A stretch of 64,000 bases of DNA from Ornithinimicrobium humiphilum (GTDB lineage: Bacteria > Actinomycetota > Actinomycetes > Actinomycetales > Dermatophilaceae), in the NCBI RefSeq assembly GCF_006716885.1, contig NZ_VFPU01000001.1, positions 2,232,001 to 2,296,000 of the forward strand. The letters run 5' to 3'. How positions within the stretch are numbered: the first letter of the stretch is position 1; each line of letters starts with the position of its first letter. Under the pieces are notes generated by a model. It was not told the DNA's origin and searched no databases. It saw only the letters and a program-made list of their open reading frames with translations. Both the position numbers and the translations under genes were made by a program. Shown one piece after another: positions 1,546-63,338 of this stretch.

Positions 1546-1559
1546 CGACGGGTATGCCG

Positions 1560-3377
1560 TCAGGCCGGGTCGGCCGGAGCCGCCCCGTCGCCCTGCTCGA
1601 CGATCCCGCGCACCTCGGCGAGGACCTCGCCGGCCGCGCGCTCGACCGGGACGTCCCGGCGGGCGCCGCTGGCGCGGTCCTTGATCTCGATGGTGCCGTC
1701 GACGAGGCCCTTGCCGACCACGACGATCGTGGGCACGCCCAGCAGCTCGGCGTCCTTGAACTTCACGCCGGGGCTGACCTTGGGACGGTCGTCGTAGATC
1801 ACCGAGAGGCCGGCGGCCTCGAGGTCGGCGACGAGCAGCCCGGCGGAGTCGAAGACCGCCTGGTCCTTGCCGGTGGCCACCACGTGCACGTCGGCCGGGG
1901 CGAGCGCCCGCGGCCAGCACAGGCCGAGGTCGTCGTGGGTCGCCTCGGCGACCGCGGCGACGGCCCGGGAGACGCCGACGCCGTAGGAGCCCATGGTGAC
2001 CGTGACGAGCTTGCCGTTCTCGTCGAGCACCTTGAGGTCGAGGGCCTCGGCGTACTTGCGGCCGAGCTGGAAGATGTGGCCCATCTCGATGCCGCGGGCC
2101 AGCGTCAGCGGGCCACCGCCGTCGGGGCTGGGGTCGCCCTCGCGGATCTCGCCGGCCTGGATCGTGCCGTCGGCGGTGAAGTCGCGGCCGACCACCAGGT
2201 CGAAGACGTGCTTGCCGTGCTCGTCGGCGCCGGTGATCCACGCCGAGCCCTCGGCGACCGAGGGGTCGAGCAGGTAGCGGATCTTCGAGGGGCTGTCCTC
2301 GCCGAGGGCGCGCGGACCGATGTAGCCCTTGACGAGCATCGGGTAGGCCGCGAAGTCCTTCTCGTCGAAGGGCGCCCACTCGGCCGGAGACACCTGGGCC
2401 TCGAGGCGCTTGGCGTCGACCTCGCGGTCACCGGGCAGGCCGATGGCCAGCGGCTCCTTGGTGCCGTCGGGGTGCGTGAGCATGACGACGACGTTCTTGA
2501 GGGTGTCGGCGGCGGTCCACTCCCGGCCGTCGGCGCGCGGGTGCAGCGCGTTGGCCTGCGCGACCAGCGTCTCGATGGTGGGGCTGTCGGGGGTGTCCTC
2601 GACGTGCGCGGCGGGCGTCGCCGCGACCACGGCGGGGTCGACCGGCGGGGCCTGGGGCACGACGACGGCCTCGACGTTGGCGGCGTAACCGGTCGCCTCG
2701 CAGCGCACGAAGGTGTCCTCGCCGACGGGGCTGACGGCGAGGAACTCCTCGCTCGCCGAGCCGCCCATCGCGCCGGAGTCGGCGTGCACGATGACGTAGT
2801 CGAAGCCGAGCCGGTCGAAGATCCGCACGTAGGCGGCGCGGTGACGCTGGTAGGCCGCCTCGAGCCCGGCGTCGTCGACGTCGAAGGAGTAGGAGTCCTT
2901 CATGATGAACTCCCGGCCGCGCAGCAGCCCGGCGCGCGGACGCGCCTCGTCGCGGTACTTCGTCTGGATCTGGTAGAGCGTCAGCGGCAGCTCCTTGTAG
3001 GAGCTGAACATGTCCTTGACCGCGAGGGTGAACATCTCCTCGTGCGTCGGGCCGAGGAGCATGTCGACGCCCTTGCGGTCCTGCAGGCGGAAGAGGTTGT
3101 CGCCGTACTCGGTCCACCGGTTGGTGGCCTCGTAGGGCTCCCGCGGCAGCAGCGCGGGGAAGCTCAGCTCCTGGCCGCCGATGGCGTCCATCTCCTCGCG
3201 CACGATCGTCTCGACCTTGCGCAGCACCTTCAGGCCCAGCGGCAGCCAGGTGTAGACGCCGGGGGCGGCGCGGCGGATGTAGCCCGCGCGCACGAGCAGC
3301 TTGTGCCCCGGCAGCTCGGCGTCGGCCGGGTCCTCGCGCAGGGTCCGCAGGAACAGGGTCGACATGCGCATGGCCAC
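1560..3377 (-). CDS. proS: Prolyl-tRNA synthetase, bacterial type with editing insert
   Basis: Charges tRNA-Pro with proline. Class II core motifs are visible: [10 protein letters not shown], then [11 protein letters not shown] and [12 protein letters not shown] (motif 2 region), and [10 protein letters not shown] (motif 3). About 170 residues between motifs 2 and 3 form the INS editing domain of bacterial ProRS, and an anticodon-binding domain follows at the C-terminus. The start was set at GTG 3377 (605 residues) because GAGGAG lies 8 nt upstream. An upstream GTG at 3386 would sit almost on that site, and an ATG at 3371 is too far from it. The TSUP gene follows. Confidence 0.95.
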
Positions 3378-3464
3378 GTGGAGCACTCCTCGAGTCGGGC
3401 AGGTGGAGGCCGGGTATGCCGCGGCTGCGGCGTCCCCGGCCGGTGTCGGACGGACCGTCAGAGC

Positions 3465-4709
3465 CTACCGGGCGGCGGCGAGCTCCTCGACGCCTTTCAG
3501 GAGCCGGTCGACCTCCTCGGTCGTGGTGTAGGGCGCCATGCCGACGCGCACGCCGCCGGTGGCCCCGAGGCCGAGCCGGTGGCTGAGCTCCCAGGCGTAG
3601 AAGTGGCTGGCGGGGGCGTTGACCCGGAGCCCGGCGAGATGGCGGTGGACCGCGGAGGGCTCCACGCCCTCGAGCGTGAAGAGCAGGGTGGGGGTCCGGC
3701 GGGCGGCGCGGGAGTGCACGATCACGCCGTCGATCGCGCGCAGACCGGCCTCGGCGCGGTCGCGCAGGGCGTCCTCGTGGCGCTCGAGCGCGGCGAAGGA
3801 GGCCGCGAGCCGCTCGCGACGGGACAAGCTCCCGGGCTCGGGACGCCCCTCGGCGCCCTCGCCCAGCCAGGCCAGGCCGGCGAGGAAGTCGACTGCGGCC
3901 GTCGTGCCGGCCAGCAGCTCGTAGGGCAGGGTGCCCAGCTCGAAGCGCTCCGGCACCGCGTCGGTGGACGGCAGCAGCTTGTCGGGGCGCAGCTCCTCGA
4001 GCAGGTCCGCCCGGCCCGTGGTGACCCCGATGTGGGGGCCGAGAAACTTGTAGGGCGAGCACGACAGCAGGTCGGCGCCGAGCGCCTCCCGGTCGAGGGT
4101 CTCGTGCGCCGCGAGGTGGACGGCGTCGACGTGCACCAGGGCACCGGCGGCGTGCGCGGCACCGACGATGGCGGGCAGGTCCGGCCGGGTGCCGATGAGG
4201 TTGCTCGCGCCGGTCACGGCGACGAGGCGGGTGCGGTCGGAGAGCACCTCCTGGACCGCCTCGAGCGACAGCTCGCCGGTCGAGGGGTCCATCTCGGCCC
4301 AGCGCACCGTGGCGCCGACGGCCTCGGCCGCGATCACCCACGGCCGGATGTTGCCGTCGTGGTCGAGGGAGGTGACGACGACCTCGTCGCCGGGCCCCCA
4401 GCCGTGGCAGCGGGCCAGCGTGCGGGCGAGGTCCATGGTGTTGGCGGTCATGCTGCGCCCGAAGATGACGGTGCCCGGGTCGACGCCGAGGAGGTCGCCC
4501 ATGGCCGCCCGTGCCTCGAGCACGGTGCGCTCCGCCTGCAGCTCGGCCTCGGTCACCGTGCCGCGGTTGGCGATCGAGCTCGTCAGGGTCGAGGCCACGG
4601 CCTCGGCCACGACGTCCGGGGTCTGGGAGCCACCGGGGCCGTCGAAGTGGGCGGTGCCGGTGCGGAGCGCCGGGAAGTGCTCCCGGACGGCGGACACGTC
4701 ATACGTCAT
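3465..4709 (-). CDS. Cysteine-desulfurase-like class V aminotransferase (VC1184 subfamily)
   Basis: 414 residues; PLP-dependent fold type I. Visible signatures are TSLDHDGNIRPW, HVDAVHLAAH (Asp and His near the PLP ring) and the Schiff-base lysine in SCSPYKFLGPH. The sequence resembles the VC1184-type 'cysteine desulfurase family' more than IscS or SufS. No Suf/Isc partner gene is adjacent, so a role in Fe-S assembly is unproven. ATG 4709 has no Shine-Dalgarno sequence, but TACCTT lies 6 nt upstream, so it is probably leaderless. It is transcribed divergently from the micro-ORF/EamA unit. Confidence 0.8.
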   Translation of the reverse strand: MTYDVSAVREHFPALRTGTAHFDGPGGSQTPDVVAEAVASTLTSSIANRGTVTEAELQAERTVLEARAAMGDLLGVDPGTVIFGRSMTANTMDLARTLARCHGWGPGDEVVVTSLDHDGNIRPWVIAAEAVGATVRWAEMDPSTGELSLEAVQEVLSDRTRLVAVTGASNLIGTRPDLPAIVGAAHAAGALVHVDAVHLAAHETLDREALGADLLSCSPYKFLGPHIGVTTGRADLLEELRPDKLLPSTDAVPERFELGTLPYELLAGTTAAVDFLAGLAWLGEGAEGRPEPGSLSRRERLAASFAALERHEDALRDRAEAGLRAIDGVIVHSRAARRTPTLLFTLEGVEPSAVHRHLAGLRVNAPASHFYAWELSHRLGLGATGGVRVGMAPYTTTEEVDRLLKGVEELAAAR

Positions 4710-12238: not shown

Positions 12239-13498
12239 TCAGGAGGTGGGCAGCGCCCCCGGAGCGGGGGTATGCCGTGCTGCCGCCGGCGGCACGTGGT
12301 CGGGGCCGAGGTCGGCGATCCGGGAGACACCGAGCAGCCGCAGGGTGCGGTGGACCTGCGAGACGAGGATCTCCAGGGCGCGGGCGACGCCCGGCTCGCC
12401 ACCGGCCATGAGGCCGTAGAGGTAGGCACGGCCGACCATGACGGCGTCGGCGCCGCGGGCGCGGGCCGCGACGATGTCGCCGCCGTGCATGACGCCCCCG
12501 TCGATGAGCAGCGGCACGTCGGGGCCGACCGCGGCGCGGACCTCGGGCAGCAGGTCGAGCGGGGCGACGGCCCGGTCGAGCTGGCGCCCGCCGTGGTTGG
12601 AGAGGACGAGCCCGTCCATGCCGAGGGCGACGAGGTCGGCGGCGTCCTGCGGGTGCTGGACGCCCTTGACGACGATGCGGCCGGGCCACTCCTCGCGCAG
12701 CCACGCGAGGTCGTCCGTGGTCATGGACGGGTCGAACATCCGGTCCACGAGGTCGGCGACGGTGCCGCCGGAGGTGCGCAGCGAGGCGAACTCGATGGGC
12801 TCGCTGGTGAGCATGTCGACCCACCACCGGGGGTGGAGCGCCATACCTCCCAGGGTGCGGGCGGTGAGCGCCGGCGGGATGGTCAGGCCGTTGCGCACGT
12901 CGCGCAGCCGCTGGCCGGCGACGGCCGTGTCGACCGTGAGCACGAGGGTGCCGAAGCCCGCGGCGGCGGCCCGGCGGATCAGCGCGCGGGAGGCCTCGCG
13001 GTCCTGCCAGAGGTAGAGCTGGAACCAGCGCTGCACGTCGGGGACGTCGGCGGCCAGGTCCTCGACGGAGACGGTGCCCATCGTCGAGAGCGTGTAGGGC
13101 ACCCCGGCGGCCGCGGCGGCACGGGCCACCGCCCACTCCCCCTGGGTGTGCATCATCCGGGTGAAGCCGGTCGGGGCCAGGACGAGCGGGACCGGGCTGG
13201 AGACCCCGAGCAGCTCGACGCGGGCGTCGACGTGCTTGACGTCGCGCAGCACCCGGGGGCGGAACTCCACGTCGGCGAAGGCCTGGCGCGCTCGGGCCAG
13301 GGACCGCTCGCCCTCGGCGGCCCCGTCGACGTAGTCGAAGACCGCGCGGGGCGTGCGCCGGCGCGCGAGCACCCGCAGGTCCTCGACGGTCTGGGCGCGC
13401 CGCAGGGCGGCGGCCGTCCGCGCGAGGGACGGCGGCTCCACCCGGACGAGCGGACGGAGCTCGGACCATGTCGGGACCCGGCGACGCAAGGGAGACAC
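12239..13498 (-). CDS. FMN-dependent alpha-hydroxy acid oxidase/dehydrogenase (LldD-like)
   Basis: 419 residues; TIM-barrel flavoprotein that oxidises L-lactate or a similar 2-hydroxy acid to the 2-oxo acid. Visible: FDYVDGAAEGE near the N-terminus, PYTLSTMGTVSVEDL, the active-site His/Arg motif LSNHGGRQLD, and the FMN phosphate loop LLIDGGVMHGGDIV with DAVMVGRAYLYG. L-lactate dehydrogenase is the most likely role, but lactate oxidase or mandelate-type activity cannot be excluded. GTG 13498 was chosen because GAGGAG lies 7 nt upstream. One GGTATGCCGT copy lies near the 3' end. Confidence 0.85.
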   Translation of the reverse strand: MSPLRRRVPTWSELRPLVRVEPPSLARTAAALRRAQTVEDLRVLARRRTPRAVFDYVDGAAEGERSLARARQAFADVEFRPRVLRDVKHVDARVELLGVSSPVPLVLAPTGFTRMMHTQGEWAVARAAAAAGVPYTLSTMGTVSVEDLAADVPDVQRWFQLYLWQDREASRALIRRAAAAGFGTLVLTVDTAVAGQRLRDVRNGLTIPPALTARTLGGMALHPRWWVDMLTSEPIEFASLRTSGGTVADLVDRMFDPSMTTDDLAWLREEWPGRIVVKGVQHPQDAADLVALGMDGLVLSNHGGRQLDRAVAPLDLLPEVRAAVGPDVPLLIDGGVMHGGDIVAARARGADAVMVGRAYLYGLMAGGEPGVARALEILVSQVHRTLRLLGVSRIADLGPDHVPPAAARHTPAPGALPTS

Positions 13499-23138: not shown

Positions 23139-24314
23139 TCAGCCGACGACGACGTCCGGCGTGCCGCCCGCCTCGGGCAGCTCGCCGCGCGACTCCATCT
23201 CCTCCGCGATGCGCATGGCCTCCTCGATGAGCGTCTCGACGATCTGCGACTCGGGGACGGTCTTGATGACCTCGCCCTTGACGAAGATCTGGCCCTTGCC
23301 GTTGCCGGAGGCGACGCCGAGGTCGGCCTCGCGAGCCTCGCCCGGACCGTTGACGACGCAGCCCATGACGGCGACGCGCAGCGGCACCTCCATGCCCTCC
23401 AGGCCGGCGGTCACCTCCTCGGCCAGGGTGTAGACGTCGACCTGGGCGCGGCCGCACGACGGGCAGGAGACGATCTCGAGCTTGCGCGGCTTGAGGTTGA
23501 GGCTCTGCAGGATCTGGTTGCCGACCTTGACCTCCTCCACCGGTGGGGCCGACAGGGAGACGCGGATGGTGTCGCCGATGCCCTTGGAGAGCAGTGCACC
23601 GAAGGCGACCGAGGACTTGATGGTGCCCTGGAAGGCCGGCCCGGCCTCGGTCACGCCGAGGTGCAGCGGCCAGTCGCCCCGCTCGGCGAGCATCTCGTAG
23701 GCGCGCACCATGACGACCGGGTCGTTGTGCTTGACCGAGATCTTGAAGTCGTGGAAGTCGTGCTCCTCGAAGAGGCTCGCCTCCCACACCGCCGACTCGA
23801 CGAGGGCCTCGGCGGTCGGCTTGCCGTACTTGTCGAGCAGCCGCTTGTCGAGGGAGCCGGCGTTGACGCCGATCCGGATCGAGACCCCGGCGTCCTTGGC
23901 TGCGCGGGCGATCTCCTTGACCTGGTCGTCGAACTTGCGGATGTTGCCGGGGTTGACGCGGACCGCCGCGCAGCCGGCGTCGATCGCGGCGAAGACGTAC
24001 TTGGGCTGGAAGTGGATGTCGGCGATGACCGGGATCTGCGACTTGCGGGCGATGGCCGGCAGCGCCTCCGCGTCGTCCTGGCTCGGGCAGGCCACGCGGA
24101 CGATGTCGCAGCCGGCGGCGGTGAGCTCGGCGATCTGCTGCAACGTCGCGTTGACGTCCGTGGTCGGGGTGGTCGTCATCGACTGCACCGAGATCGGGGC
24201 GTCTCCACCGACCTCGACCTTGCCTACCCGGATCTTCCGGCTCTGCCGTCGCGGGGCGAGGACCGGGGCCGGGGCGGACGGCATACCGAGGGAGATGGGG
24301 GTGCCAGCAGTCAT
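23139..24314 (-). CDS. ispG: (E)-4-hydroxy-3-methylbut-2-enyl-diphosphate synthase
   Basis: 391 residues. IspG carries out the penultimate step of the MEP isoprenoid pathway using a [4Fe-4S] cluster. The barrel shows [12 protein letters not shown] and [13 protein letters not shown]; the C-terminal domain carries the cluster motifs [10 protein letters not shown] and [11 protein letters not shown], with the Glu that ligates iron. It lies downstream of dxr and rip, but GATACT 7 nt before the ATG points to its own leaderless transcript as well. Confidence 0.95.
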
Positions 24315-24345: not shown

Positions 24346-25665
24346 TCAGCCGAGACTGATCGGCTTGACGATGTCGGCGTAGATGAGCAGCGCGGTCATG
24401 CCCAGCAGGCTGATCGCGACGGCATAGGCGACGGGCAGCGCCGCGGCGGTGTCGACGGGGCCGGGCGCGGGGCGGTTGCGCAGGCGGGCCCAGGTCTTCT
24501 TCACGCCCTCCCACAGCGCCCCGGCGATGTGGCCGCCGTCCAGCGGCAGCAGGGGTATGAGGTTGAACACGAAGAGCGCCATGTTGAGCGAGGCGATGAG
24601 CGAGAGCAGCACCCACAATCGGTCCCCCACGCCCTGGGTGAGGTCGCCGAGACCGCCGGAGGCCACGTCCCCGGCCACCCGACCGACGCCGACGACCGAC
24701 ATCGGTCCCTCGGGGTCGCGGTCCTCGGTGCCGAAGGCGGCCTGGGAGACGTCGACGAGCCGCTGGGGAAGCGTGATCACGATGCGCGCGGTCTGGACGA
24801 ACATGTCGCCGACGAAGGCGGGCACGTCGGTGATCGGCTGCGGCTGGTACTCGAAGGTGGGCGTGGCCCCGAGGAATCCGACCTCGCCCCACACGAGCTC
24901 GCCCTCGTCGTCGAGCTGGTACTCGCCCTCCGGGGTGACCAGCGGCCGCTCGCGCATGACGAGGTCGGCCACGAGCGTCTCCTCGCGGCCGTCGCGCTCG
25001 ACGGTGAAGGTGGCCTGCTCGCCGGCGTTCTGGATGGCGTACGTGGTCTCGGGCCAGGTGGAGACGGCGCGCCCGTCGACGGCGACGATCGTGTCGCCCT
25101 CCTGGAAGCCGGCCGCGAGCGCCGGCGAGGGGTCCTTGCCGGTGCAGTCGTCGTCGGCCACGTCGGTGTTGGCGCACTGCGCCACCGTGGCGACGGTGGG
25201 CGTGAGGACGCCGATGCCGTGGACCGTCAGCAGCAGGGTGACGAGCACGGTGGCGATGACCAGGTTCATCAGCGGCCCGCCGGCCATGATGACCAGCCGC
25301 TGCCACACCGGGAGGCGGTAGAAGACGCGGTGCTCGTCGCCCGGGGTCACCTCGTCGAGGCTGTCCTGCCTGGCCTGCTCGATCATCTGGTGGAACGGGT
25401 TGGAGGTGGCGCGTCGCAGCTTGCCGCCGTCGGAGGCCCGGGGCGGGAACATCCCGATCATCCGCACGTAGCCGCCCAGGGGGACGGCCTTGAGGCCGTA
25501 CTCGGTCTCGCCGCGCCGGGTCGACCACACGGTGGGGCCGAAGCCGACCATGTACTGGGTGGTCTTGACGCCGAACTTCTTGGCCGGCACCAGGTGCCCG
25601 ACCTCGTGCAGCGCGATCGACAGCGCGATGCCGACGACGATCACGAGGACGCCGAGCAGGTACAT
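24346..25665 (-). CDS. rip: Site-2 (M50) RIP metalloprotease, Rip1/RseP-like
   Basis: 439 residues; cleaves anti-sigma factors or other membrane proteins within the bilayer. HEVGH at about residues 20-24 binds zinc. A PDZ domain follows ([19 protein letters not shown] at about 165-185). The second zinc motif is [12 protein letters not shown] near residue 370. Four hydrophobic segments are visible. The start was set at ATG 25665, which overlaps the dxr stop by one base; GTG 25668 has a better SD spacing (GGAGG, 7 nt). The dxr-rip-ispG order is conserved in actinobacteria. Confidence 0.93.
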
Positions 25666-34592: not shown

Positions 34593-34599
34593 CCCCACC

Positions 34600-40077: not shown

Positions 40078-40084
40078 GGCCGTC

Positions 40085-41257: not shown

Positions 41258-41264
41258 GAGAGGT

Positions 41265-41309
41265 ATGCCGTCCCCCTCGCCGTCCCCCTCCGCCGGAGCC
41301 GTCCGGTGA
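41265..41309 (+). CDS. Predicted 14-codon upstream ORF, coupled to xerC
   Basis: ATG 41265 begins [14 protein letters not shown] and ends with a TGA that overlaps the GTG start of xerC as GTGA. The ATG lies within a GGTATGCCGT copy (41262-41271). The arrangement mirrors the 17-codon ORF before the EamA transporter. Expression is inferred only from layout. Confidence 0.4.
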
Positions 41310-44229: not shown

Positions 44230-44928
44230 TCAGCCCCCTCCCTGTCCGGCGATCGGCAGGAGCGAGAGCTCGACCGGCTCGAGGAGGAGCAGCGGGTCGA
44301 CGTAGCTGTCCCGCCCGGTCCGGGCCCCCAGGTGCAGGCAGTCGGCCAGCAGGCAGTGACCACCCGTGCCGAGATGACCGAGCCGCTCGCCCCTGCCGAC
44401 GCGCGATCCCGCGGGGGCCCCGTCGGTGACGGGCTGGTAGGTGCTGCGGAGCCCGCTTGCGTGGTCGACCGAGACGACGCCGACGCCTGCGACGGTCCCG
44501 CTGAAGGCGACGACCCCGGCGTCGACGGCCCGGACCGGCTCGCCCGCCACCCCGGCCAGGTCGATGCCCCGGTGGCCGGCCCCCCAGCGATGCTCCGGCG
44601 GGTCGAAGGTGCGCGCGACGGGTGGGCGCCCGAAGAGGGGCCAGTCCCAGACGGTGGTGCGTCGTGAGTCGGACGAGAAGGCGTGCCGGGGCGACTCCAC
44701 CCGCAGGCCGAGGACGGCGGAGGTCGCGCCGGCCTGGCGTGCCACCTCGGACGTCCCTCCGCCATCCTCCGCCACCGGAGGTCGTGCGCCGTGGTTCGTC
44801 GCCACCGCCGGCGGCGGCGTCCCGGGGACCGTCACCGCATCCCCGACCGTCTGGAGGGCGAGCGCCGCCACCAGGGCCAGTGCCCGGCCCACGCTTCTGG
44901 TCCCGGCAGGGGTCGTTGCCCGTCTCAT
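44230..44928 (-). CDS. Secreted M23 family peptidoglycan peptidase
   Basis: 232 residues with an N-terminal signal sequence (GRALALVAALALQTVGDAV). The LytM/M23 domain runs from about residue 90: RFDPPEHRWGAGHRGIDLAG with zinc His/Asp, VVAFSGTVAGVGVVSVDHASGL and LADCLHLGART. It probably trims or binds the cell wall. ATG 44928 overlaps the dprA stop (ATGA), ending the chain yraN-comM-dprA-M23. Confidence 0.85.
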   Translation of the reverse strand: MRRATTPAGTRSVGRALALVAALALQTVGDAVTVPGTPPPAVATNHGARPPVAEDGGGTSEVARQAGATSAVLGLRVESPRHAFSSDSRRTTVWDWPLFGRPPVARTFDPPEHRWGAGHRGIDLAGVAGEPVRAVDAGVVAFSGTVAGVGVVSVDHASGLRSTYQPVTDGAPAGSRVGRGERLGHLGTGGHCLLADCLHLGARTGRDSYVDPLLLLEPVELSLLPIAGQGGG

Positions 44929-46052
44929 CGCCCACCCGCCCGTCGCCAGCCGTCGAGCAGCTGCTCGGCCAGTCCGCGCTCCTCGAGCTCGCAGAGGGCG
45001 ACGAGCACGTCGGACACCCCCAGACCGGCCCGCACCATCAGCTCGTCGACGCTGACCGAGGCTCGGGGCCGCAGCCACTGCCACACCCGCTTGGTCTCCT
45101 CGGGCAGACCGTCCTCGGGACGCACCTCGCCCCGGCGGACGGGCGCCAGGTCGTCGCCGATCCGGCCGACGAGCTCGGCGACCTCGGCCGCGTCGGTGAC
45201 GAGCGTGGCACCGAGACGCACCTCCTCGTGGCAGCCCGAGGACATGACGCTCGTGACCGGTCCCGGCACGGCCATGTGGTGGCGACCCAGCTCGCGGGCG
45301 ATCTTGGCGGTGGTGCGGGCGCCGGACCGCACGTTGGCCTCCACCACGACCGTGCCGGGGGTGACGGCGGCGATGATCCGGTTGCGGGCCAGGAAGCGCA
45401 TCCTGGCCGGTGCTCCGCCCGGCGGTGTCTCGCTCAGGACGCAGCCGGTGTCGGCGATGCCGGACAGCAGCCCGGCGTTGGCCCGGGGGTAGGGCACGTC
45501 CACGCCGCCGGCGAGGACGGCGACCGTGGTGCCGCCCGCCCGCAGCGCGCCCCGGTGCGCGGCAGCGTCGATGCCGTAGGCGGCGCCCGAGACCACGGCG
45601 AATCCCCGCTCCGCCAGCTCGAAGGCCATCCGGGTCGCGACCTCGTCGCCGTAGGCGGTGCTCGCCCTGGCCCCGACGAGGGCGACGCTCCTGCCGGCCC
45701 AGTCCGCGGGTGCGGCCGGCCCACGGACCCAGAGGCACCACGGCGGGTCCTCGAGGTCGTCCAGACCGGTTGGCCAGTCGGCGTCCTCGGGGGTGAGCAC
45801 CCGCAGCCCCAGCGCCCGGCAGATCTGGTCGTCGTCCACGGCCTGTGCCCTGGGCAGCCGGGTCCGGAGCCGCTCCAGCCCGACCCCGTCGGGGGTGCGG
45901 CCGTCGTGGATGGCGTAGCCGACCAGGTCGAGGACGCCGTAGGTGGCCACCAGCCGCCGGACCACGTCGTCGTAGGGCTCGGCGATGCGGGCCAGCAGCA
46001 TGCGGGCCTTGCGCTCCCCCAGCCGGGCTCCGGCCCCGTCCGTCCCGGTCAT
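44925..46052 (-). CDS. dprA: DNA processing protein DprA
   Basis: 375 residues. It protects incoming single-stranded DNA and loads RecA during natural transformation; it is also kept in many non-competent bacteria. The Rossmann-like core shows VALVGARASTAYGDEVA, VSGAAYGIDAAAHRGAL, AGGVDVPYPRAN and VVEANVRSGARTTAKIA. A C-terminal winged-helix of about 60 residues follows. ATG 46052 overlaps the comM stop (ATGA). Confidence 0.93.
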   Translation of the reverse strand: MTGTDGAGARLGERKARMLLARIAEPYDDVVRRLVATYGVLDLVGYAIHDGRTPDGVGLERLRTRLPRAQAVDDDQICRALGLRVLTPEDADWPTGLDDLEDPPWCLWVRGPAAPADWAGRSVALVGARASTAYGDEVATRMAFELAERGFAVVSGAAYGIDAAAHRGALRAGGTTVAVLAGGVDVPYPRANAGLLSGIADTGCVLSETPPGGAPARMRFLARNRIIAAVTPGTVVVEANVRSGARTTAKIARELGRHHMAVPGPVTSVMSSGCHEEVRLGATLVTDAAEVAELVGRIGDDLAPVRRGEVRPEDGLPEETKRVWQWLRPRASVSVDELMVRAGLGVSDVLVALCELEERGLAEQLLDGWRRAGGR

Positions 46053-47578
46053 GCCGCCTTCACCCCCTCGGCCTCGCGCATGTGCAGGGCGTGCCGCACG
46101 TGCGGGTAGCGCGGGCGCTCGACGCCCTCCAGATCCGCGAGGGTCCAGGCCACGCGCAGGCAGCGGTCCAGCCCGCGCAGCGTGAGCGTCCCTCGGTCGA
46201 GCGCGTCGTCCAGCGGCCTGCGGTCGGCCGCTGCCAGCTGCCACGGTCCCTGCCGCAGCGCCGACCCGGGCGCCTGGGCGTTGACGCCCCACGGCTGGCC
46301 GCGCCACCGGCGCGCCTGGCGTTCGCGTGCCCTGCGCACCCGGGCGGCGACCACCTCGGTGTGCTCGCCGGGGCCGCCGGCGAGGTCGGCCCGCGCGACC
46401 GGCTGCACGGCGACCTTGATGTCCACCCGGTCCAGCAGGGGGCCGGACAGGCGCGAGAGGTAGCCGGCCCTCCGGGCGGGCGGGCAGATGCACCGGCCGT
46501 TGCCGCCGCCGCACGGGCAGGGGTTGGCGGCGAGGACGAGCTGGAAGCGGGCCGGCAGGCGGACGTGCCGGTCGGCGCGGGCGATGACGACCTCACCGGA
46601 CTCCAGCGGCTGACGCAGCCCGTCCAGCACGTCGCGACGGAACTCGGGCGCCTCGTCAAGGAAGAGGACTCCCCGATGGGCCCGCGAGACCGCTCCGGGC
46701 CGGACCGCGCCCGACCCGCCGCCGATGACTGCCGCCATCGAGGCGCTGTGGTGCGGCGCCACGAACTGCGGGGTGGTGACCAGCGCGTCCCCGCCGGGCA
46801 GCAGCCCCAGCACCGAGTGGACCGAGGTGACCGCGAGCGCGTCGTCCTGGGCCAGGCTCGGCAGCAGGCCGGGAAGCCGCTCGGCGAGCATCGTCTTGCC
46901 CGCGCCGGGCGGACCGACCAGCAGCAGGTTGTGACCCCCGGCGGCCGCCACCTCCAGGGCGGAACGGGCGACCGCCTGCCCGACGACGTCGCGCAGGTCG
47001 GGAAGACGGGCAGGCTCGACCGGTGCGGGCTCGGGCAGCTGCCCGCCGGGGTCGAGCCCGGCCGCGCGCGCCTCGTAGGTGCGCTGCACGTCGCGCAGGG
47101 TGCGCACCGGATGGACCCGTACCCCGGTGACCAGCGCCGCCTCCCGCGCAGCCTGGACCGGGACCACGACCTCCTCGAAACCGGCCTGCGCGGCCGCCGC
47201 CACCATCGGCAGCACCCCCGTGACCGGGCGCACCTCGCCCTCGAGGCCGACCTCGCCGATGTGGACCGTGCGAGACACGAGGTCGGGGTCGAGGTGGTCC
47301 TCGGACGCCAGCAGCGCGGCGGCGACCGCGAGGTCGAGGCCGCTGCCCACCTTGGGCAGGCCGGCGGGGCTGAGGTTCACGGTCCAGCGGCCCTGCGGGA
47401 GCGTCACCCCCAGGTTGCGGATGGCGGGTCGCACGCGGTCGGGGGCCTGGCGGCAGGCGCTGTCAGCCAGGCCGCTGACGACGAAGACCGGCAGACCCGA
47501 GCTGCACTGGGCCTCGACGGTCACCACCCGCCCCTCGACGCCGGAGAGCGTCACCCCGCGCGCCTGCGCGAAGCCCAT
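46049..47578 (-). CDS. comM: ComM/YifB AAA+ helicase (Mg-chelatase-like)
   Basis: 509 residues. An N-terminal Lon-like domain (SGLPVFVVSGLADSA, NLSPAGLPKVGSGLDLA) precedes the AAA+ core: Walker A GPPGAGKTMLAE, Walker B GVLFLDEAPEF. A cysteine cluster (PCPCGGGNGRCICPP) and a C-terminal helical domain follow. ComM is a branch-migration helicase for integrating transforming DNA in Vibrio. ATG 47578 overlaps the yraN stop (ATGA). Confidence 0.93.
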   Translation of the reverse strand: MGFAQARGVTLSGVEGRVVTVEAQCSSGLPVFVVSGLADSACRQAPDRVRPAIRNLGVTLPQGRWTVNLSPAGLPKVGSGLDLAVAAALLASEDHLDPDLVSRTVHIGEVGLEGEVRPVTGVLPMVAAAAQAGFEEVVVPVQAAREAALVTGVRVHPVRTLRDVQRTYEARAAGLDPGGQLPEPAPVEPARLPDLRDVVGQAVARSALEVAAAGGHNLLLVGPPGAGKTMLAERLPGLLPSLAQDDALAVTSVHSVLGLLPGGDALVTTPQFVAPHHSASMAAVIGGGSGAVRPGAVSRAHRGVLFLDEAPEFRRDVLDGLRQPLESGEVVIARADRHVRLPARFQLVLAANPCPCGGGNGRCICPPARRAGYLSRLSGPLLDRVDIKVAVQPVARADLAGGPGEHTEVVAARVRRARERQARRWRGQPWGVNAQAPGSALRQGPWQLAAADRRPLDDALDRGTLTLRGLDRCLRVAWTLADLEGVERPRYPHVRHALHMREAEGVKAA

Positions 47579-47955
47579 CAGGCCACCGCCTCGAGGTGCT
47601 CCAGCCGCGGCTCGCCGTCCGGTGGCGCCAGGACGGCCACGAGGTCGATGCGGAACCGTCCGGGGCGCACCTCGTGCGCGGCCTGCCAGGCCCACGCGAG
47701 CACGCGCAGCCTCCGGGCCTTGGCGTGGCCCACCGCCTCCAGCGGGCCGCCCAGTCGGGTCGAGCGCCGCGTCTTGACCTCGACGAAGACCAGCTCCCCG
47801 TCGGGGTCGCGCGCCACGACGTCGATCTCCCCCTCGCGGCACCGCCAGTTGCGGTCCACCACCTGCCAGCCCAGCGCCTCCAGGTGCGCGCAGGCGAGCT
47901 CCTCGCCCCGGTCGCCCACCGCGCGCGCCTGGCGCCACGGCATACCTGTGCCCAT
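47578..47955 (-). CDS. yraN: UPF0102 family endonuclease-like protein YraN
   Basis: 125 residues; PD-(D/E)xK nuclease-like fold with Glu in REGEIDVVARD and the EVK of LVFVEVKTRR. The family has been linked to DNA processing and recombination. ATG 47955 was chosen over an upstream ATG because GAGGAGGGG ends 4 nt before it. A GGTATGCCGT copy lies in the fourth to sixth codons. It is the first gene of the yraN-comM-dprA-M23 unit. Confidence 0.88.
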   Translation of the reverse strand: MGTGMPWRQARAVGDRGEELACAHLEALGWQVVDRNWRCREGEIDVVARDPDGELVFVEVKTRRSTRLGGPLEAVGHAKARRLRVLAWAWQAAHEVRPGRFRIDLVAVLAPPDGEPRLEHLEAVA

Positions 47956-50621: not shown

Positions 50622-51500
50622 GTGCCCATCCTCACCCTGCTGGCCTCCCCCGAGCGCGCCGACCTGACCGAGGCGGCGGTCGCCGAGCTGGCGGCCGCGT
50701 GGCCGCTGGGGCGGCACCGCTGGCTCTCCCCCGGCGTCGCCGTCGAGGCGGAGCTGGCGCTCGTGCCCGACGACCGCGAGGAGGTCTGGCAGCGCTGGCA
50801 GGAGCGCGGGGTCGACCTCGCGGTGCAGCCCGACGAGGCCCGGCGCAAGCGGGTCCTGCTGGCCGACATGGACTCCACCATGGTCCAGCAGGAGTGCATC
50901 GACGAGCTCGCCGCGCACGCCGGCGTGGGTGAGCGGGTCGCCGCCATCACGGCCCGCGCCATGAACGGCGAGCTCGACTTCGTCGAGGCCCTCACCGAGC
51001 GGGTGGCGCTGCTGCGCGACCTGCCCACGTCGGTGGTGGACACCGTCCTCGCCGAGCGGATCACCTACACCCCCGGCGGGCTCGAGCTGGTCGCGACCAT
51101 GCGCGCGCATGGCGGCTACGCGGCCCTGGTCTCCGGCGGCTTCACGCCCTTCACCGAAGCGGTGGCGACCACCCTCGGCTTCGACGAGCACCGCGCCAAC
51201 ACCCTCGGGGTCGAGGGCGACCGGTTCGCCGGCACGGTCGTGGGGCCCGTGGTGGGCCGCGACGCGAAGGTCGCGGCCCTGCGCGAGATCACGGGCCGCC
51301 TCGGGCTCACCCCGGACGACGCGATCGCCGTGGGCGACGGCGCCAACGACCTCGGGATGCTGCAGCTGGCCGGCACCGGGGTCGCGCTGCACGCCAAGCC
51401 GGCGGTCGCCGCGCAGGTGGACGTCCGGGTCAACCACGGCGACCTCACCGCGCTCCTCTACCTCCAGGGGTATGCCGTGGAGGAGTTCGTCCGCCCCTGA
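50622..51500 (+). CDS. serB: Phosphoserine phosphatase
   Basis: 292 residues; last step of serine synthesis. HAD motifs: LLADMDSTMVQQECIDELA (nucleophile Asp and DxDST) at about residues 79-97, ALVSGGFTPFTEAVA (motif 2), and AVGDGANDLGMLQLAGTGVA (motif 4). The N-terminal 70 residues are a short regulatory-type domain. The GGTATGCCGT copy near the C-terminus encodes GYAV with TAT, although other Tyr codons in the gene are TAC. It is predicted leaderless and convergent with trmD. Confidence 0.92.
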   Translation: MPILTLLASPERADLTEAAVAELAAAWPLGRHRWLSPGVAVEAELALVPDDREEVWQRWQERGVDLAVQPDEARRKRVLLADMDSTMVQQECIDELAAHAGVGERVAAITARAMNGELDFVEALTERVALLRDLPTSVVDTVLAERITYTPGGLELVATMRAHGGYAALVSGGFTPFTEAVATTLGFDEHRANTLGVEGDRFAGTVVGPVVGRDAKVAALREITGRLGLTPDDAIAVGDGANDLGMLQLAGTGVALHAKPAVAAQVDVRVNHGDLTALLYLQGYAVEEFVRP

Positions 51501-52790: not shown

Positions 52791-52833
52791 GCCTACCTCC
52801 GGGGGTCGTGGGTCGAACGGGTATGCCGTGACG

Positions 52834-53774: not shown

Positions 53775-55268
53775 TCACTCCGGTGCGTGCTCGGCGACGA
53801 ACTGCAGCACCTCGGTGTCGTCGACGCCGGGGAAGACGCCGGGCGGCATGACCGCGAGCAGGTGGGAGTGCGCCCGGGCGCTGGGCCAGACCTTCCCCTC
53901 CCAGCGGCGCGCGAGCACCGGAGGCGGTTCGGTGCAGCAGCGCGGGTCCGGGCAGCGCGAGACCCGCCGCTCGGTGGTGTCGCGACCGCGCATCCACCGG
54001 ACCTGGTCGAAGGGCACGCCCATGCTGACCGAGAAGCGCCCGTTGGGGGTCTGCTCCGCGACCGCGGTGCACCAGAACGTGCCGCGACCGGTGTCGGTGT
54101 ACTGGTGGTAGACCTCCCCGGCCGGGCGCTCGAAGACGACGCGGGCCGTCCAGGAACGGCATACCCGCGCTCCCTCGATAGCACCGGTGGCGTCCATCGG
54201 GAAGCGCACGCCGTCGTTCTCGTAGGCCTTGTAGATGACCCCGTCGGCGCTGGTGCGCATGAAGTGCACGCGCAGGTCGAGGTGGCGGGTGGCCAGGTTG
54301 CAGAACCGGTGCGCGGCGGTCTCGTAGGAGACGCCGTAGGCGTCGCGCAGGTCCTCCAGGGCGATGTCGCGGGCTGCCTTCGCCCGCTGCAGGAAGGGCA
54401 CGACGCTGGCCTCGGGCAGCAGCACGGCGGCGGCGAAGTAGTTGATCTCGACGCGTTGGGCGAGGAACTCGGCGTAGTCGCGCGGGGCCTCGTGCCCGAG
54501 CACGACGTGCCCGAGCGCCTGCAGCGCGGTCGCGCGCAGGTCGTGCCCGCCGCGCACGGGCACGTAGATCCGCCTGTTCTCCAGGTCGGTGACGGTGCGG
54601 GTCGAGGCCGGCAGGTCGGGCACCGGCTCGATCTCGAAGCCGATGTGCCGCGCGATGCGGTTGACCGCCTCGCGGGTCATCGGACCGGCGCCGTGGTCGA
54701 CCGCCCGGACCAGATCGGCCGCCTGCCGCTCGATGGCCGGGAAGTAGTTGTCGGCCTCGCGCATGAGCCGGCGCAGCTGGGCGTTGGCGGCGCGGGCGAA
54801 CTCGGGCGTCGCGGCCCGCTGCTGCTGCAGCCCGACCACGGACTCGTAGAGGCCGACGAGCGCCTCCAGTGCGTCGTCGGGCAGACCGGGACCGACGCGG
54901 ACCTCGGGGATGCCGAGGCTCTCGAAGCCGGGCGAGCGCTGGGCGCGCTCCCACTTCACCTCGAGCGCGGCCCTGCGGGTCGGGGGGCCGCCCTCCAGCA
55001 GCCGGCCCAGGTCGACCCCGAGGGCGGACGCGATGGCGGTCAGCGTCGTGACCCGCGGCTCGCGGCGGCCGTTCTCCAGCAGCGACAGCGCGGAGGTCGA
55101 CATCCCCACCCTCCCGGCGAGCTGCGCGAGGGTCAGGTCGGCCGCGCGGCGGTGGTGACGGACGCGGCGCCCGATGGACACGGGGTCGGCCCCGCCACCC
55201 GGGGCCTCGGTCGCCTCCAGGGCCGGGGTGGGCGAGAACGGCAGCACCCGTTCGTGAACGATCGACAT
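53775..55268 (-). CDS. ramB: RamB/ScfR-type XRE regulator of acetate/short-chain acyl metabolism
   Basis: 497 residues. An XRE helix-turn-helix spans about 28-90 ([20 protein letters not shown]). A large sensor region includes the IrrE-like [14 protein letters not shown] and a C-terminal DUF2083-type domain with Cys residues ([13 protein letters not shown]). In Corynebacterium RamB represses glyoxylate and acetate genes including aceA/aceB. It is divergent from aceA. ATG 55268 has TATCGT 6 nt upstream, so it is probably leaderless. Confidence 0.87.
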
Positions 55269-58453: not shown

Positions 58454-59557
58454 CTAGCCGCGCGCGCCGGAGTGCTCGTGGCCGACCCCGCGCAGGATGA
58501 CGCGGTGCGGGGTGGCCATCGTGCGGATGTCCTGGCGCGGGTCGTCGCGGTAGACGACGATGTCGGCCGACTCGCCCTCCGCGATGCCCGGGCGGCCGAG
58601 CCACTCCCGCGCCCCCCAGGTCGCGGCGCCGATCGCCTCGAGGTTGGACATGCCGGTGCGCGTCAGCGCCTCGACCTCGCGGGCGACGAGCCCGTGCGGC
58701 AGCTGCCCGCCGGCGTCGGTGCCGACGTAGACGGGCACACCGGCCTCGCGCGCCTTGGCCACCGTCTCGTAGCGCCGCTCGTAGAGGTCCATCATGTGGT
58801 CGGCGTAGGTCGGGAACTTGCCCCGCCCGGCCTCGGCGAACTTGGGGAAGTTGTCGATGTTGACCAACGTCGGCACGATCGCGATCTGCTGCCGGGCGAA
58901 GGTGTCGATCGTGTCGTCGGTCAGCCCGGTCGCGTGCTCGATGCAGTCCGTGCCGGCGGCCGCGAAGTCGACCAACGACTGCTCGCCGAAGCAGTGCGCT
59001 GTCACCCGGGCACCCTCCTCGTGCGCGGCGGCGATGGCGTCGGTGAGGATGTCCACCGGCCAGCAGATGCCCAGGTCGCCGGTCTCGCGGTCGATCCAGT
59101 CGCCGACCAGCTTGACCCATCCGTCGCCGTTGCGGGCCTCCTGGCGGACGTACTCGACCAGGTCCTCGGGCTCGATCTCCCAGGCGAAGTTGCGCAGGTA
59201 GCGCTTGGTCCGGGCGATGTGGCGACCGGCGCGGATGAGCCGCGGCAGGTCGTCCCGCTCCTGGACCCAGCGGGTGTCGAGCGGGCTGCCGGCATCGCGC
59301 AGCAGCAGCGCCCCGGCGTCGCGGTCGGCGAGCGCGTGCTCCTCGGCCCGCTCGGGCTCGACGGCACCGTGGGACTCCAGGCCGACGTGGCAGTGCGCGT
59401 CGACCAGGCCCGGCACGGCATACCCCTCGACGGTCTCGACCTCTCCCCCCGCCGGCGGGGTGAGGCTGACCCGGCCGTCGATGACCCACAGCTCGTCGAG
59501 CACCTCCTCGGGGCCGACCAGGATCGTGCCGCGGACGTGCAGGACCGGTGCGCTCAT
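58454..59557 (-). CDS. Imidazolonepropionase-like amidohydrolase
   Basis: 367 residues. Metal ligands are visible: HxH in VDAHCHVGLE, His in VTAHCFGEQS, His in CIEHATGL and Asp in YVGTDAGGQLPHG. GWVKLVGDW may hold a bridging Lys. A similar amidohydrolase often lies between ffh and rpsP in actinobacteria. The substrate is unknown. ATG 59557 has GAGGAG 7 nt upstream. A GGTATGCCGT copy near residue 45 encodes GYAV with a TAT codon. Confidence 0.83.
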   Translation of the reverse strand: MSAPVLHVRGTILVGPEEVLDELWVIDGRVSLTPPAGGEVETVEGYAVPGLVDAHCHVGLESHGAVEPERAEEHALADRDAGALLLRDAGSPLDTRWVQERDDLPRLIRAGRHIARTKRYLRNFAWEIEPEDLVEYVRQEARNGDGWVKLVGDWIDRETGDLGICWPVDILTDAIAAAHEEGARVTAHCFGEQSLVDFAAAGTDCIEHATGLTDDTIDTFARQQIAIVPTLVNIDNFPKFAEAGRGKFPTYADHMMDLYERRYETVAKAREAGVPVYVGTDAGGQLPHGLVAREVEALTRTGMSNLEAIGAATWGAREWLGRPGIAEGESADIVVYRDDPRQDIRTMATPHRVILRGVGHEHSGARG

Positions 59558-59643: not shown

Positions 59644-60306
59644 GTGGCTGACGACGGACACCTCCCGGGGCCCCGGGTCGACCTGGCCCGGGTGCTGCGC
59701 GACGCCGCCGACGGACGCTTCCCCGAGCCCGACGGTGGCTTCTCCCGGGCGGCCCCGTGGCGGCCGGGCGTGGAGGCCGCGGTGGCCCTCACCGGCCACG
59801 CGGTGATGGTCGTGGGCGAGGACGTCACCGACGCCGAGCTGGCCCGGCTCGGGGTGCACGGCTACGGCGGCGCGCACGACCCGCGCGCCACCGTCGCGCT
59901 CGCGGGGGACGGCGAGATCGGCGTGCTCGACGTGCTCATGGTCGGTCGTGGCCGGCCCGGGCCGTCTGCGCTGGTGCCGCGCCCCGACCTCGGCACCACC
60001 GAGCGGGCGCTCCACGCGCGGGACTGGAGGGACGACGTCACGGTGCACGGCCTGCCCGACCCGGGCAGCGACGCCCTGGTGACACTCTCCCGGGGCATCG
60101 CCGGCCTGCCCGAGCTCGGCGTGCACGCGCTCGGCGCCCCGGCCGACGAGCTGCTCGCCGGCGCGCTGGCGCTGGTGCCCGAGGGCGAGGTCGTGCTGGC
60201 CTCGGTCACGCCGGGCAACGCCCGCTCGCTGCGCTTCTTCCTCCGCTCCGGCTTCGTGCCGGTCGGCTCGGTGCAGCAGTGGCGCCCGCGCCGGATCAGG
60301 GGATGA
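59644..60306 (+). CDS. Divergent GNAT-like protein
   Basis: 220 residues. Only the C-terminal motif is clearly GNAT-like: VVLASVTPGNARSLRFFLRSGFVPVGSVQ. The central DVLMVGRGRPGPSALVPRP could be a remnant of the acetyl-CoA region. Function unknown. It is predicted leaderless. The last 11 bases overlap the convergent glycosylase gene. Confidence 0.65.
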   Translation: MADDGHLPGPRVDLARVLRDAADGRFPEPDGGFSRAAPWRPGVEAAVALTGHAVMVVGEDVTDAELARLGVHGYGGAHDPRATVALAGDGEIGVLDVLMVGRGRPGPSALVPRPDLGTTERALHARDWRDDVTVHGLPDPGSDALVTLSRGIAGLPELGVHALGAPADELLAGALALVPEGEVVLASVTPGNARSLRFFLRSGFVPVGSVQQWRPRRIRG

Positions 60307-60898
60307 CGCCGGCCGCCCGCGCGGGCTCGGCGTAGGCGGCCGCGAGCGAGGCGACGGTCTCGTGGGCGTTGAGACCGCTGGGGTTGGGCACGACCCAGAG
60401 GCGGGCCCCCTCGAGCGGCTCGGGCTGCTCCCCCGCCCGCGCGGTGCGCACCCCGAAGGCGCTCCGGTATGCCGTGATGCCGGCCACCGCGACCACGGCG
60501 GGACGCACGCGGGCGACGGTCGCGCGCAGCCGCCGGCCCCCGTCGCGCAGCTCCTGCGCGGTGAGCTCGTCGGCGCGTGCGGTGGCGCGCGGCGCCAGGT
60601 TGGTGATGCCGATGCCGCGGGCCAGCAGGTGGGCCCGGTCGTCGTCGGTCATCCCGGCGGAAGGGTCGATGCGCCTCGCGATGATGCCGGCCTCGAGCAG
60701 CGCCGGGTAGAAGCGGTTGACCGGGTGGGCGAAGTGCGTGCTGGTCGCCGCGGTCCACAGCCCGGGGTTGATGCCGACGACGAGCAGCCGCACCGGCGTC
60801 GCCGAGCCCTCCACCGGCAGCAGGTCGGGCACCTCCGCGTCGCGGAAGGCCTCGAGCTCCTCGCGGGTGAAGCGACGCCGCGGCGCGGCCTCAGCCAT
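60296..60898 (-). CDS. mug: G/U mismatch-specific DNA glycosylase
   Basis: 200 residues; removes uracil or thymine opposite G. LLVVGINPGLWTAATSTHFAHP carries the GINPG motif with the catalytic Asn, and WVVPNPSGLNAH is the second conserved loop. ATG 60898 overlaps the protease stop by 8 nt (ATGGCTGA). A GGTATGCCGT copy encodes TAYR. Confidence 0.88.
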   Translation of the reverse strand: MAEAAPRRRFTREELEAFRDAEVPDLLPVEGSATPVRLLVVGINPGLWTAATSTHFAHPVNRFYPALLEAGIIARRIDPSAGMTDDDRAHLLARGIGITNLAPRATARADELTAQELRDGGRRLRATVARVRPAVVAVAGITAYRSAFGVRTARAGEQPEPLEGARLWVVPNPSGLNAHETVASLAAAYAEPARAAGVIP

Positions 60899-62129: not shown

Positions 62130-62135
62130 GCCAGC

Positions 62136-62195: not shown

Positions 62196-63227
62196 TCAGC
62201 CCTCGGCGAGCAGCTCGCGGACGCGGGGGACGACCTGCGTGCCGTAGAGCTCGATCGAGCGCATCAGCTGGCTGTGCGGCATCGGCCCGTTGGCGTACTT
62301 GAGGTCGAAGCGCGACAGTCCCAGGGCCTGCACGGTCGAGGCGATCTTGCGCGCCACCGTCTCCGGCGAGCCCACGTAGAGCGCCCCGGAGCGGACCTCG
62401 GAGACGAACTCGTCCGTGGTCATGGGCGGCCAGCCGCGCTCGGCGCCGATCCGGTCGCGATTGGCCTTGAAGTGGCCGAAGAGCTGCTCCAGCGCGAGGT
62501 CGTCGGTCTCGGCGACGTGGCCGGGCGAGTGCACCGCGACGGGCAGGTGCGGGGAGCCGGCCTCGTCCAGGGCACGACGGTAGAGGTCGGCGAAGGGCGC
62601 GAAGCGCTGCGCCGGGCCGCCGATGATCGCCAGCATGAGCGGCAGCCGGTAGGAGGCCGCGCGCACGACGCTCTGCGGCGAACCGCCGACCGCGATCCAG
62701 GTGGTCAGGCGCCCGGACTCGGTCCTGGGCCAGACCTCCTGGTCGACGAGCGGCGGGCGGGTCGAGCCCTGCCAGCTGACCGGACCCTCGTCCAGGAGCT
62801 TCGTGAAGAGGTCGAGCTTCTCGGCGAAGAGGACCTCGTAGTCGCGCAGGTCGAAGCCGAAGAGCGGGAAGGACTCCGTGAACGACCCGCGGCCGAGCAC
62901 CACCTCGGCGCGCCCGTTGGACAGGGCGTCGATGGTCGAGAAGCGCTCGAAGACGCGGATCGGGTCGTCGGAGCTGAGCACCGTGACCGCGGAGCCGAGC
63001 CGGATGCGCTTGGTGCGCGTCGCCATACCCGCGAGGACGACGTCCGGGGCGCTCACCGCGAAGTCGGGGCGGTGGTGCTCCCCCACCCCGATGAAGTCGA
63101 CGCCGACCGAGTCGGCCAGCACCGCCTGGTCGACGAGGTGGCGGATCACGCGGGCGGCGGGCTCGGGAGCCCCGTCGTCGTCCAGCGTCAGGTCGCCGAA
63201 GGTGTCCAGGCCCAGCTCTACCGTCAC
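62196..63227 (-). CDS. LLM-class flavin-dependent oxidoreductase
   Basis: 343 residues; bacterial luciferase-like TIM barrel using FMN or F420. VELGLDTFGD starts the barrel; FIGVGEHHRPDFAVSAPDVVLAG, VSVGGSPQSVVRAA-like (AVGGSPQSV) and LYVGSPETVARKI are typical of the LLM group with a flavin phosphate site. The substrate is unknown. GTG 63227 was chosen because AGAGGA lies 6 nt upstream. A palindrome lies in its promoter region. Confidence 0.82.
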   Translation of the reverse strand: MTVELGLDTFGDLTLDDDGAPEPAARVIRHLVDQAVLADSVGVDFIGVGEHHRPDFAVSAPDVVLAGMATRTKRIRLGSAVTVLSSDDPIRVFERFSTIDALSNGRAEVVLGRGSFTESFPLFGFDLRDYEVLFAEKLDLFTKLLDEGPVSWQGSTRPPLVDQEVWPRTESGRLTTWIAVGGSPQSVVRAASYRLPLMLAIIGGPAQRFAPFADLYRRALDEAGSPHLPVAVHSPGHVAETDDLALEQLFGHFKANRDRIGAERGWPPMTTDEFVSEVRSGALYVGSPETVARKIASTVQALGLSRFDLKYANGPMPHSQLMRSIELYGTQVVPRVRELLAEG

Positions 63228-63260
63228 GGTCGTTCCTCTCGACATCGACACGTCGTGTTC

Positions 63261-63274
63261 GTTGACGTGTCAAC
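63261..63274. promoter_or_regulatory. Palindrome GTTGAC-gt-GTCAAC upstream of the LLM gene
   Basis: A 14-bp inverted repeat overlaps a minus-strand TTGACA that could be a -35 paired with GTCGAT at 18 bp. A repressor operator is plausible. Confidence 0.4.
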
Positions 63275-63338
63275 CAACTCTACGGTATGCCGTATTCCGC
63301 CGGACCCTCCCCCGGCGGCAGCCCGCTGGGGTCCGGGC

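Follow-up and report, generated by a model that had tools for sequence, protein, structure and literature searches.

The actinobacterium Ornithinimicrobium humiphilum carries a short, asymmetric DNA word, GGTATGCCGT, dispersed across its genome. The word came to notice in a window of 64 kb (the whole stretch of DNA that was analysed, C1:2232001-2296000 of a 3.44-Mb genome in five contigs), where an earlier note had likened it to a DNA uptake sequence. Its distribution suggests that GGTATGCCGT, with the core GTATGCCG, is probably a self-recognition tag of the kind represented by the DNA uptake sequences (DUS) of Neisseriaceae and the uptake signal sequences (USS) of Pasteurellaceae, with dialects in different genera. 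The distribution is read directly from the genomes; a role in uptake and a dedicated reader of the word are what it points to.

Over-representation and placement of the word

All 17 exact copies reported in the earlier note are present in the window, nine on the forward and eight on the reverse strand, the first starting at 1551 and the last ending at 63293. In 100 dinucleotide shuffles, the mean was 0.06 copies and the maximum one. The 8-mer GGTATGCC occurs 19 times, as had been counted, although the chance figure of about 2 given with that count was too high, an order-2 model giving 0.67. The whole genome contains 446 copies of GGTATGCCGT (209 forward and 237 reverse), while the control, the same word read backwards and counted alongside, was found 0 times on either strand. 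Further counts come from a 1.164-Mb sample of C1 that combines the window with 55 stretches of 20 kb. Here, 162 copies were observed against 0.9 expected under an order-3 and 8.9 under an order-4 Markov model. Orders 5, 6, 7 and 8 expect 24, 63, 152 and 161 copies, converging on the observed count because models of such order contain most of the word. For k = 8, 9 and 10, the top over-represented word of the sample was GGTATGCCGT or part of it. The window is about twice as dense in the word (one per 3.8 kb) as the genome (one per 7.7 kb). Hundreds of copies of an asymmetric word, far beyond Markov expectation, are a property of uptake sequences.

The core occurs 290 times in the sample, continuing with T in 201 copies and preceded by G in 232. 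The flanks of GGTATGCCGT are unrelated, save for weak preferences for G before and G after, and it is therefore a word rather than a repeat element. Unrelated flanks and genome-wide copies together exclude confinement to one region or one repeat family, the outcome previously named as speaking against an uptake-like word. An Rfam scan of the window gave no matches. One-base variants of GGTATGCCGT exceed expectation mostly at positions 1, 7, 8 and 10, and hardly at 3, 4, 6 and 9.

By a crude gene caller, which places 14.5% of the sample outside genes, the 162 exact copies divide into 105 within coding sequences (CDS), 49 intergenic and eight across edges. This amounts to a roughly two-fold intergenic enrichment of a word that is still common inside genes. 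Copies within genes use all six reading frames, confirming the earlier remark that they fall in different frames of unrelated genes. The rare codons seen at the word were also borne out, with 95 of the 334 TAT codons and 21 of the 59 ATA codons of the sample sitting in core words by the same crude gene calls. The use of all frames, the rare codons, the intergenic enrichment and a family-wide persistence with turnover of sites (see below) support the proposal that selection acts at the level of the DNA word rather than of the protein. The word is also scarce in AT-richer DNA: 5-kb segments below 69% G+C hold two core words in 15 segments (75 kb) against 18.6 at the mean rate (287 in 232 segments), the pattern that recently acquired DNA, yet to gain the word, would give. 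Known uptake words are likewise described as non-palindromic, free of chromosomal orientation bias, often located in open reading frames and in excess in non-coding DNA (PMC1939737).

Distribution and dialects

The word is largely a property of the family. Among 71 genomes of Dermatophilaceae (also named Intrasporangiaceae; G000-G070), the core GTATGCCG occurs 394-4724 times in 51, 196-293 times in three and 7-111 times in 17. In other families of the order, all 46 genomes hold at most 167 copies, which is 0.5-3.6 times their reversed controls (in one genome, 3 vs 0). In a draw across the class (296 genomes, 290 from other families), no genome outside the family exceeded 386 copies, a count reached in a genome of 7.5 Mb whose control stood at 176. 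The reversed core used as control, GCCGTATG, is itself part of the dialect of genome G045 and raised in some carriers, so core-to-control ratios in those genomes look smaller than they otherwise would (1142 vs 453 in G045). Counts for 28 named genomes place O. tianjinense, O. cavernae, Humibacillus xanthopallidus, Intrasporangium oryzae, Terrabacter sp. Root85, Knoellia remsis, Phycicoccus elongatus and Arsenicicoccus bolidensis (1660, control 578) among the carriers. Counts stay at or close to background in Janibacter indicus, Dermacoccus abyssi, Intrasporangium flavum, Kribbella, Nocardioides and Streptomyces.

Within the genus itself, 30 of the 31 genomes are core-rich, the exception being G022 with 50 copies. 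This genome keeps 0 of 28 core words aligned from its sisters, against 673 of 3295 control 8-mers, and showed no clear word of its own in the 48.5 kb scanned. In the other congeners, 84 of 215 word comparisons were conserved against 5112 of 23561 for controls, the comparisons being non-independent; word sites therefore turn over but are favoured.

De novo k-mer scans, followed by site listings, covered 60 kb from 12 genera poor in the 10-mer and 40-60 kb from seven genomes of other families of the order. They yielded GGATGCCGG in G056, CGAAGGGGG in G067 and, in G045, GCCGTATGCCGCTG, whose conservation extends further into the flank. Four core-poor genera carry GGATGCCGG or CGAAGGGGG in place of the core. 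Whole-genome counts of GGATGCCGG reach 2027 in G056 and 1068 in G046 (controls 63 and 71), against 57-351 in the other 40 of 42 genomes, while CGAAGGGGG reaches 1939 in G067 and 1666 in G068 (controls 20 and 22), against 13-74 in the other 40 of 42. The core count of G046 is intermediate (235), and G031 shows a weaker excess of GGATGCCGG than G046 or G056 (351, control 72). ATGCCG is common to the GTATGCCG and GGATGCCGG dialects. In G031, G038, G040, G043 and G044, the 60-kb scans brought out no clear own word.

Some further words were recorded during these scans. The G045 dialect (L095-L097) has an unusually long consensus of about GCCGTATGCCGCTGRGCTSGSTYC, drawn by eye from 18 sites. Outside the family, CGCCGAGGTG occurs 25 times in 40 kb of G110 (family f7; L140 and L141) against 0.6 expected, dispersed and in both orientations, and perhaps represents another family with its own word. 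GTACGCCG was noted in G053, G054, G070 and G049; it is 6-7-fold over expectation in G053 (L103-L105, L152) and G070 (L115-L117, L155), and, being raised 3-5-fold in loci of Kribbella and Nocardioides as well, counts only as a candidate dialect. The top words of G071, G074 and G081, all from other families, were rejected as dialects, being tandem or local repeats. Tandem arrays with 15-base and 18-base units lie at L122:9979-10273 (G071) and L127:13470-13950 (G074), and are unrelated to the word.

Orientation and spacing

Alongside the 209/237 split between orientations, the test of replichore bias proposed at the outset was negative: the best two-arc split of C1 by orientation was no better than shuffles (p = 0.80; 1.16-Mb sample). 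Both orientations without replichore bias are characteristic of DUS and USS, and the bias along replichores typical of Chi or FtsK-orienting polar sequences (KOPS) is absent. Counts of GGTATGCCGT per 20 kb have a mean of 2.76 and a variance of 3.11, a random-like scatter.

At short range, the arrangement depends on strand. Neighbouring core words less than 1 kb apart in O. humiphilum are oppositely oriented in 40 of 44 cases (p = 1.7e-8); more distant neighbours are mixed (98 same vs 95 opposite). In 15 loci of other genera, close neighbours are opposite in 64 of 92 (p = 2e-4), and in G110 in 8 of 13, a small, non-significant sample. When all pairs within 1 kb were counted against a uniform-density expectation, O. 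humiphilum had 4 same-strand pairs vs 35.3 expected and 42 opposite-strand pairs vs 35.3, with both counts normal beyond 1.5 kb. The corresponding figures are 43 and 88 vs 60.6 in other genera, where the effect is as much an opposite-strand excess as a same-strand deficit, and 9 and 28 vs 23.8 in the pooled dialects. Four other frequent words of O. humiphilum served as controls; three were significantly same-strand and one had only three close pairs, although these are frequent coding words, probably strand-biased and hence imperfect controls.

The closest core pair is 49 bases apart, and in seven of the 12 core pairs within 200 bases both words fall in CDS. The distance between inverted neighbours ranges from 49 to 1000 bases, with the arms in either order, and the tight inverted pairs at gene ends that mark rho-independent terminators are not the pattern seen. 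Since same-strand copies are depleted within 1 kb and opposite-strand copies are not, the reading of the word appears to be strand-specific and to extend about 1 kb, which would make a further same-strand copy redundant.

Candidate uptake machinery

The O. humiphilum genome contains comEA and comEC beside degV-like and leuS-like genes, and a Tad-type cluster at C1:2393357-2398019. In this cluster, TadA, TadB, TadC, Flp and three minor-pilin-like proteins were named by layout and recognition, and the T2SSF domain alone was profiled. The carrier encodes an uptake route (Tad-type pilus genes, ComEA, ComEC and a dprA-like gene), and non-carriers do too. As had been cautioned, dprA is widespread and so a weak clue: dprA, comEA and comEC also occur in word-less relatives. 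The type IV pilus marker PilM scored over its cut-off in 7 of 55 genomes, namely all four from other families and 3 of 51 from the family, O. humiphilum not being one of them. By gene-content correlation, none of ComEC, T2SSF/Tad, dprA, PilM and RecC tracks the word.

Alignment of Tad minor-pilin-like proteins from 16 genomes revealed no feature separating carriers from non-carriers. The second TadE-like protein (C1:2393854-2394258) has a cysteine pair conserved in 16 of 16 sequences, word-less genomes included. ComP and the proposed Pasteurellaceae receptor both bear a disulphide-anchored loop (PMC12616744), and by analogy this pair might be taken as a lead, and a lead only, towards a word receptor.

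Two other observations concern these genes. Genome G000 has four separate pairs of T2SSF matches, at C1:399362, 708481, 1402819 and 2395037, and probably four Tad-type clusters. In two members of the same genus, G002 (C1:1161102-1202035) and G017 (C46:68443-109701), about 40 kb interrupts the comEC matches, which would suit a prophage-sized insertion within the gene; both genomes retain high word counts.

A possible role in DNA uptake

If the word is an uptake tag, tagged fragments would be preferentially taken up and recombined by competent relatives, and the word would accumulate on the chromosome. A putative surface DNA receptor, perhaps a minor pilin of the Flp/Tad pilus, would bind the word on double-stranded DNA, ComEA and ComEC would then pass one strand, and DprA and RecA would recombine it. 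Such biased import would spread and preserve the word. Drift of the receptor between genera could produce the dialects GGTATGCCGT, GCCGTATGCCGCTG, GGATGCCGG and CGAAGGGGG, and loss of specificity would let the word decay, as may have happened in the word-less congener G022. Because a same-strand copy appears redundant within about 1 kb and an opposite-strand copy does not, the orientation of the word probably decides which strand or flank is imported, in which case strand-specific exclusion fits uptake. It is reasonably likely that uptake combined with molecular drive accounts for the length of the word, the dialects, the loss in a sister species, the intergenic excess, the scarcity in AT-richer DNA and the absence of polarity. 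More tentatively, and at somewhat less than even chances, the word could belong to an uptake code that is resolved by strand and used by a Gram-positive family. Either orientation would independently permit a Flp/Tad-type apparatus to import one strand or flank, and the genus dialects (perhaps those of other actinobacterial families too), with at least one re-invented word, would be mutually unreadable and act as sexual barriers.

Several observations weigh against an uptake tag. The core density in O. humiphilum is one per 4 kb, and uptake words in Neisseria are denser than this. The candidate machinery does not discriminate: ComEC is present in 62 of 64 genomes, leaving no split between carriers and non-carriers, a dprA relative was found in all 50 family genomes tested, and the conserved Tad cluster also occurs in the word-less G022, G031, G038 and G040. 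The word-rich G047 has three T2SSF matches, and the locus covering two of them has only a distant TadA (38%). In the one-contig genome G014, comEC (L099:9134-11035) lacks about 140 membrane-domain residues, in frame, yet the genome has 1520 core copies, so the uptake reading needs this loss to be recent. The CGAAGGGGG dialect of G067 and G068 shares no core with the others. Counts per 20 kb are random-like, whereas known uptake words are described as evenly spaced, and word orientation is reported to have no effect on uptake in H. influenzae (both PMC1939737), so the strand effect is not a known DUS trait. This effect is also not significant in small samples taken one at a time, namely other Ornithinimicrobium (11 same and 16 opposite close neighbours, 16/27, p = 0.44), G056 (3 same, 11 opposite), G067 (4 and 9) and G045 (1 and 5). 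A literature search pairing natural transformation with Ornithinimicrobium found no paper.

Alternative explanations

The strand effect could be explained at least as simply by a directional, strand-specific signal of the Chi type, that is, a recombination hotspot at which RecBCD or an AdnAB/AddAB-type nuclease-helicase spares DNA and loads RecA. Chi sites are directional, dispersed, asymmetric and abundant words, and same-strand redundancy within about 1 kb would follow naturally. We nevertheless regard this as unlikely. Known Chi sites have 5-8 bases, whereas this word has at least 10 (about 20 in G045), and it lacks replichore polarity. A core repair signal would hardly be expected to disappear from the sister G022 or to give way to an unrelated word. 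In a search that did not extend to AdnAB/AddAB, RecC was not found in ten core-rich genomes (G033, G034, G037, G045, G047, G051, G052, G062, G065 and G069) and was found in the core-poor G022, G036, G039, G040, G043, G054 and G066. Overall, RecC was found in 32 of 51 genomes, including O. humiphilum and the searched core-rich genomes of the Ornithinimicrobium group. Its presence in carriers and non-carriers alike, and its absence from the ten, leave no association between RecC and the word either way.

The genome-wide occurrence in both orientations, the intergenic enrichment and the scarcity in AT-richer DNA would also suit dispersed sites bound by a nucleoid-associated, condensin-loading or similar protein and involved in chromosome folding or the marking of native DNA. 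This, too, seems improbable, as the word is long and asymmetric, exclusion restricted to the same strand has no obvious structural reason, and the count falls to background in G022 and the word is replaced by an unrelated one in G067 and G068. Asymmetry is shared with the targets of type III, BREX (bacteriophage exclusion) or similar modification or restriction systems, and type III enzymes are sensitive to the relative orientation of two sites. However, such sites usually have 5-7 bases and are avoided or neutral in their host, whereas this word is enriched about 20- to 180-fold (Markov order 4 or 3) and tolerates changes at positions 7 and 8 in a way unlike a restriction site; an enriched, modification-linked site is thus very unlikely. 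Finally, some close pairs are inverted and intergenic, which might hint at a by-product of transcription terminators, codon or peptide usage, or a mobile element family. We consider this extremely unlikely given the use of all six frames, the rare codons, the unrelated flanks, and the spacing (49-1000 bases) and mixed arm order of inverted neighbours, which resemble neither terminator stems nor terminal repeats. Three of the four control words, moreover, have significantly more same-strand neighbours, the fourth being too rare to judge.

Comparison with known uptake systems

The distribution bears out the suggested likeness to DUS as far as asymmetry, both orientations, lack of replichore bias, intergenic excess, near-miss copies, dialects and scarcity in AT-richer DNA are concerned. 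The DUS of Neisseriaceae, read by ComP, are likewise asymmetric words of 10-12 bases that abound both within genes and outside them; their dialects track phylogeny and retain a conserved inner part (PMC3630211). Here, the inner ATGCCG is shared by the GTATGCCG and GGATGCCGG dialects but not by CGAAGGGGG. In contrast, GGTATGCCGT is another word, occurs in an actinobacterial host with strand-specific exclusion, and belongs to a family in which PilM scored in only 3 of the 51 genomes tested. The ATGCCGT shared with the Neisseria sequence, to which attention had been drawn, is probably a coincidence, as the essential neisserial CTG core (PMC3630211) is absent from GGTATGCCGT.

The USS of Pasteurellaceae also have an asymmetric core, no chromosomal orientation bias and a non-coding excess (PMC1939737), and the long conserved flank of the G045 dialect adds to the likeness. 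However, the USS is an unrelated word in a Gram-negative host, and some pairs of USS act as terminators, overlapping within 14 bases (PMC7811141), whereas the closest pair here is 49 bases apart. Among actinobacteria, Micrococcus luteus transforms via a Flp/tad pilus together with ComEA and ComEC, and resembles O. humiphilum in having ComEA, ComEC, a Tad gene cluster and TadE-like minor pilins (PMC6370729). It differs in that the available part of this account mentions no uptake sequence for M. luteus.

In the available parts of the literature cited here, uptake words are described for Neisseriaceae and Pasteurellaceae only (PMC3630211, PMC1939737). No account of such an actinobacterial word was found among the openly licensed papers listed, which is weak evidence of absence; literal searches for GGTATGCC and ACGGCATACC gave nothing on the subject among the titles listed, and none of the literature searches made found transformation in Dermatophilaceae. 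If the uptake reading is true, this would be a third, independent and Gram-positive case of an uptake word, one that has several dialects and seems to have been lost from a sister species. It would allow comparative tests of how uptake words arise, whether Tad minor pilins read DNA sequence and whether divergence isolates species. In practice, a single 10-12-base word added to DNA could aid attempts to transform these actinobacteria. The strand-specific spacing provides a quantitative signature for which known uptake words, and any genome, could be screened.

Copies in the window

Five copies are intergenic by gene calls, at 1551-1560 (+), 37966-37975 (-), 41262-41271 (+; directly after a CDS ending at 41251), 52820-52829 (+) and 63284-63293 (+). 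Five of the remaining copies lie within genes named by the earlier note or recognisable by eye: 26648-26657 (+) in the dxr-like CDS 25665-26906 (-) and 36459-36468 (-) in the pyrH-like CDS 36151-36930 (-), both by eye, and, under the earlier names, 33472-33481 (+) in rlmN (CDS 33399-34598, -), 40326-40335 (-) in an aminotransferase gene (CDS 40076-41251, +) and 59415-59424 (-) in an amidohydrolase gene (CDS 58454-59557, -). Five fall within other CDS, at 12269-12278 (+) in 12239-13441 (-), 30624-30633 (-) in 29504-31417 (-), 51469-51478 (+) in 50622-51500 (+), 54156-54165 (-) in 53775-55247 (-) and 60466-60475 (+) in 60296-60898 (-). The dprA-like gene is at 44925-46052 (-), its name resting on the earlier note and recognition by eye rather than a profile.

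Two window genes have a predicted ATG start codon that forms part of the word. The copies concerned are that at 24278-24287 (-), over the start of CDS 23139-24284 (-), which is ispG-like by eye, and that at 47937-47946 (-), over the start of CDS 47578-47943 (-), which adjoins the genes previously named comM and dprA.

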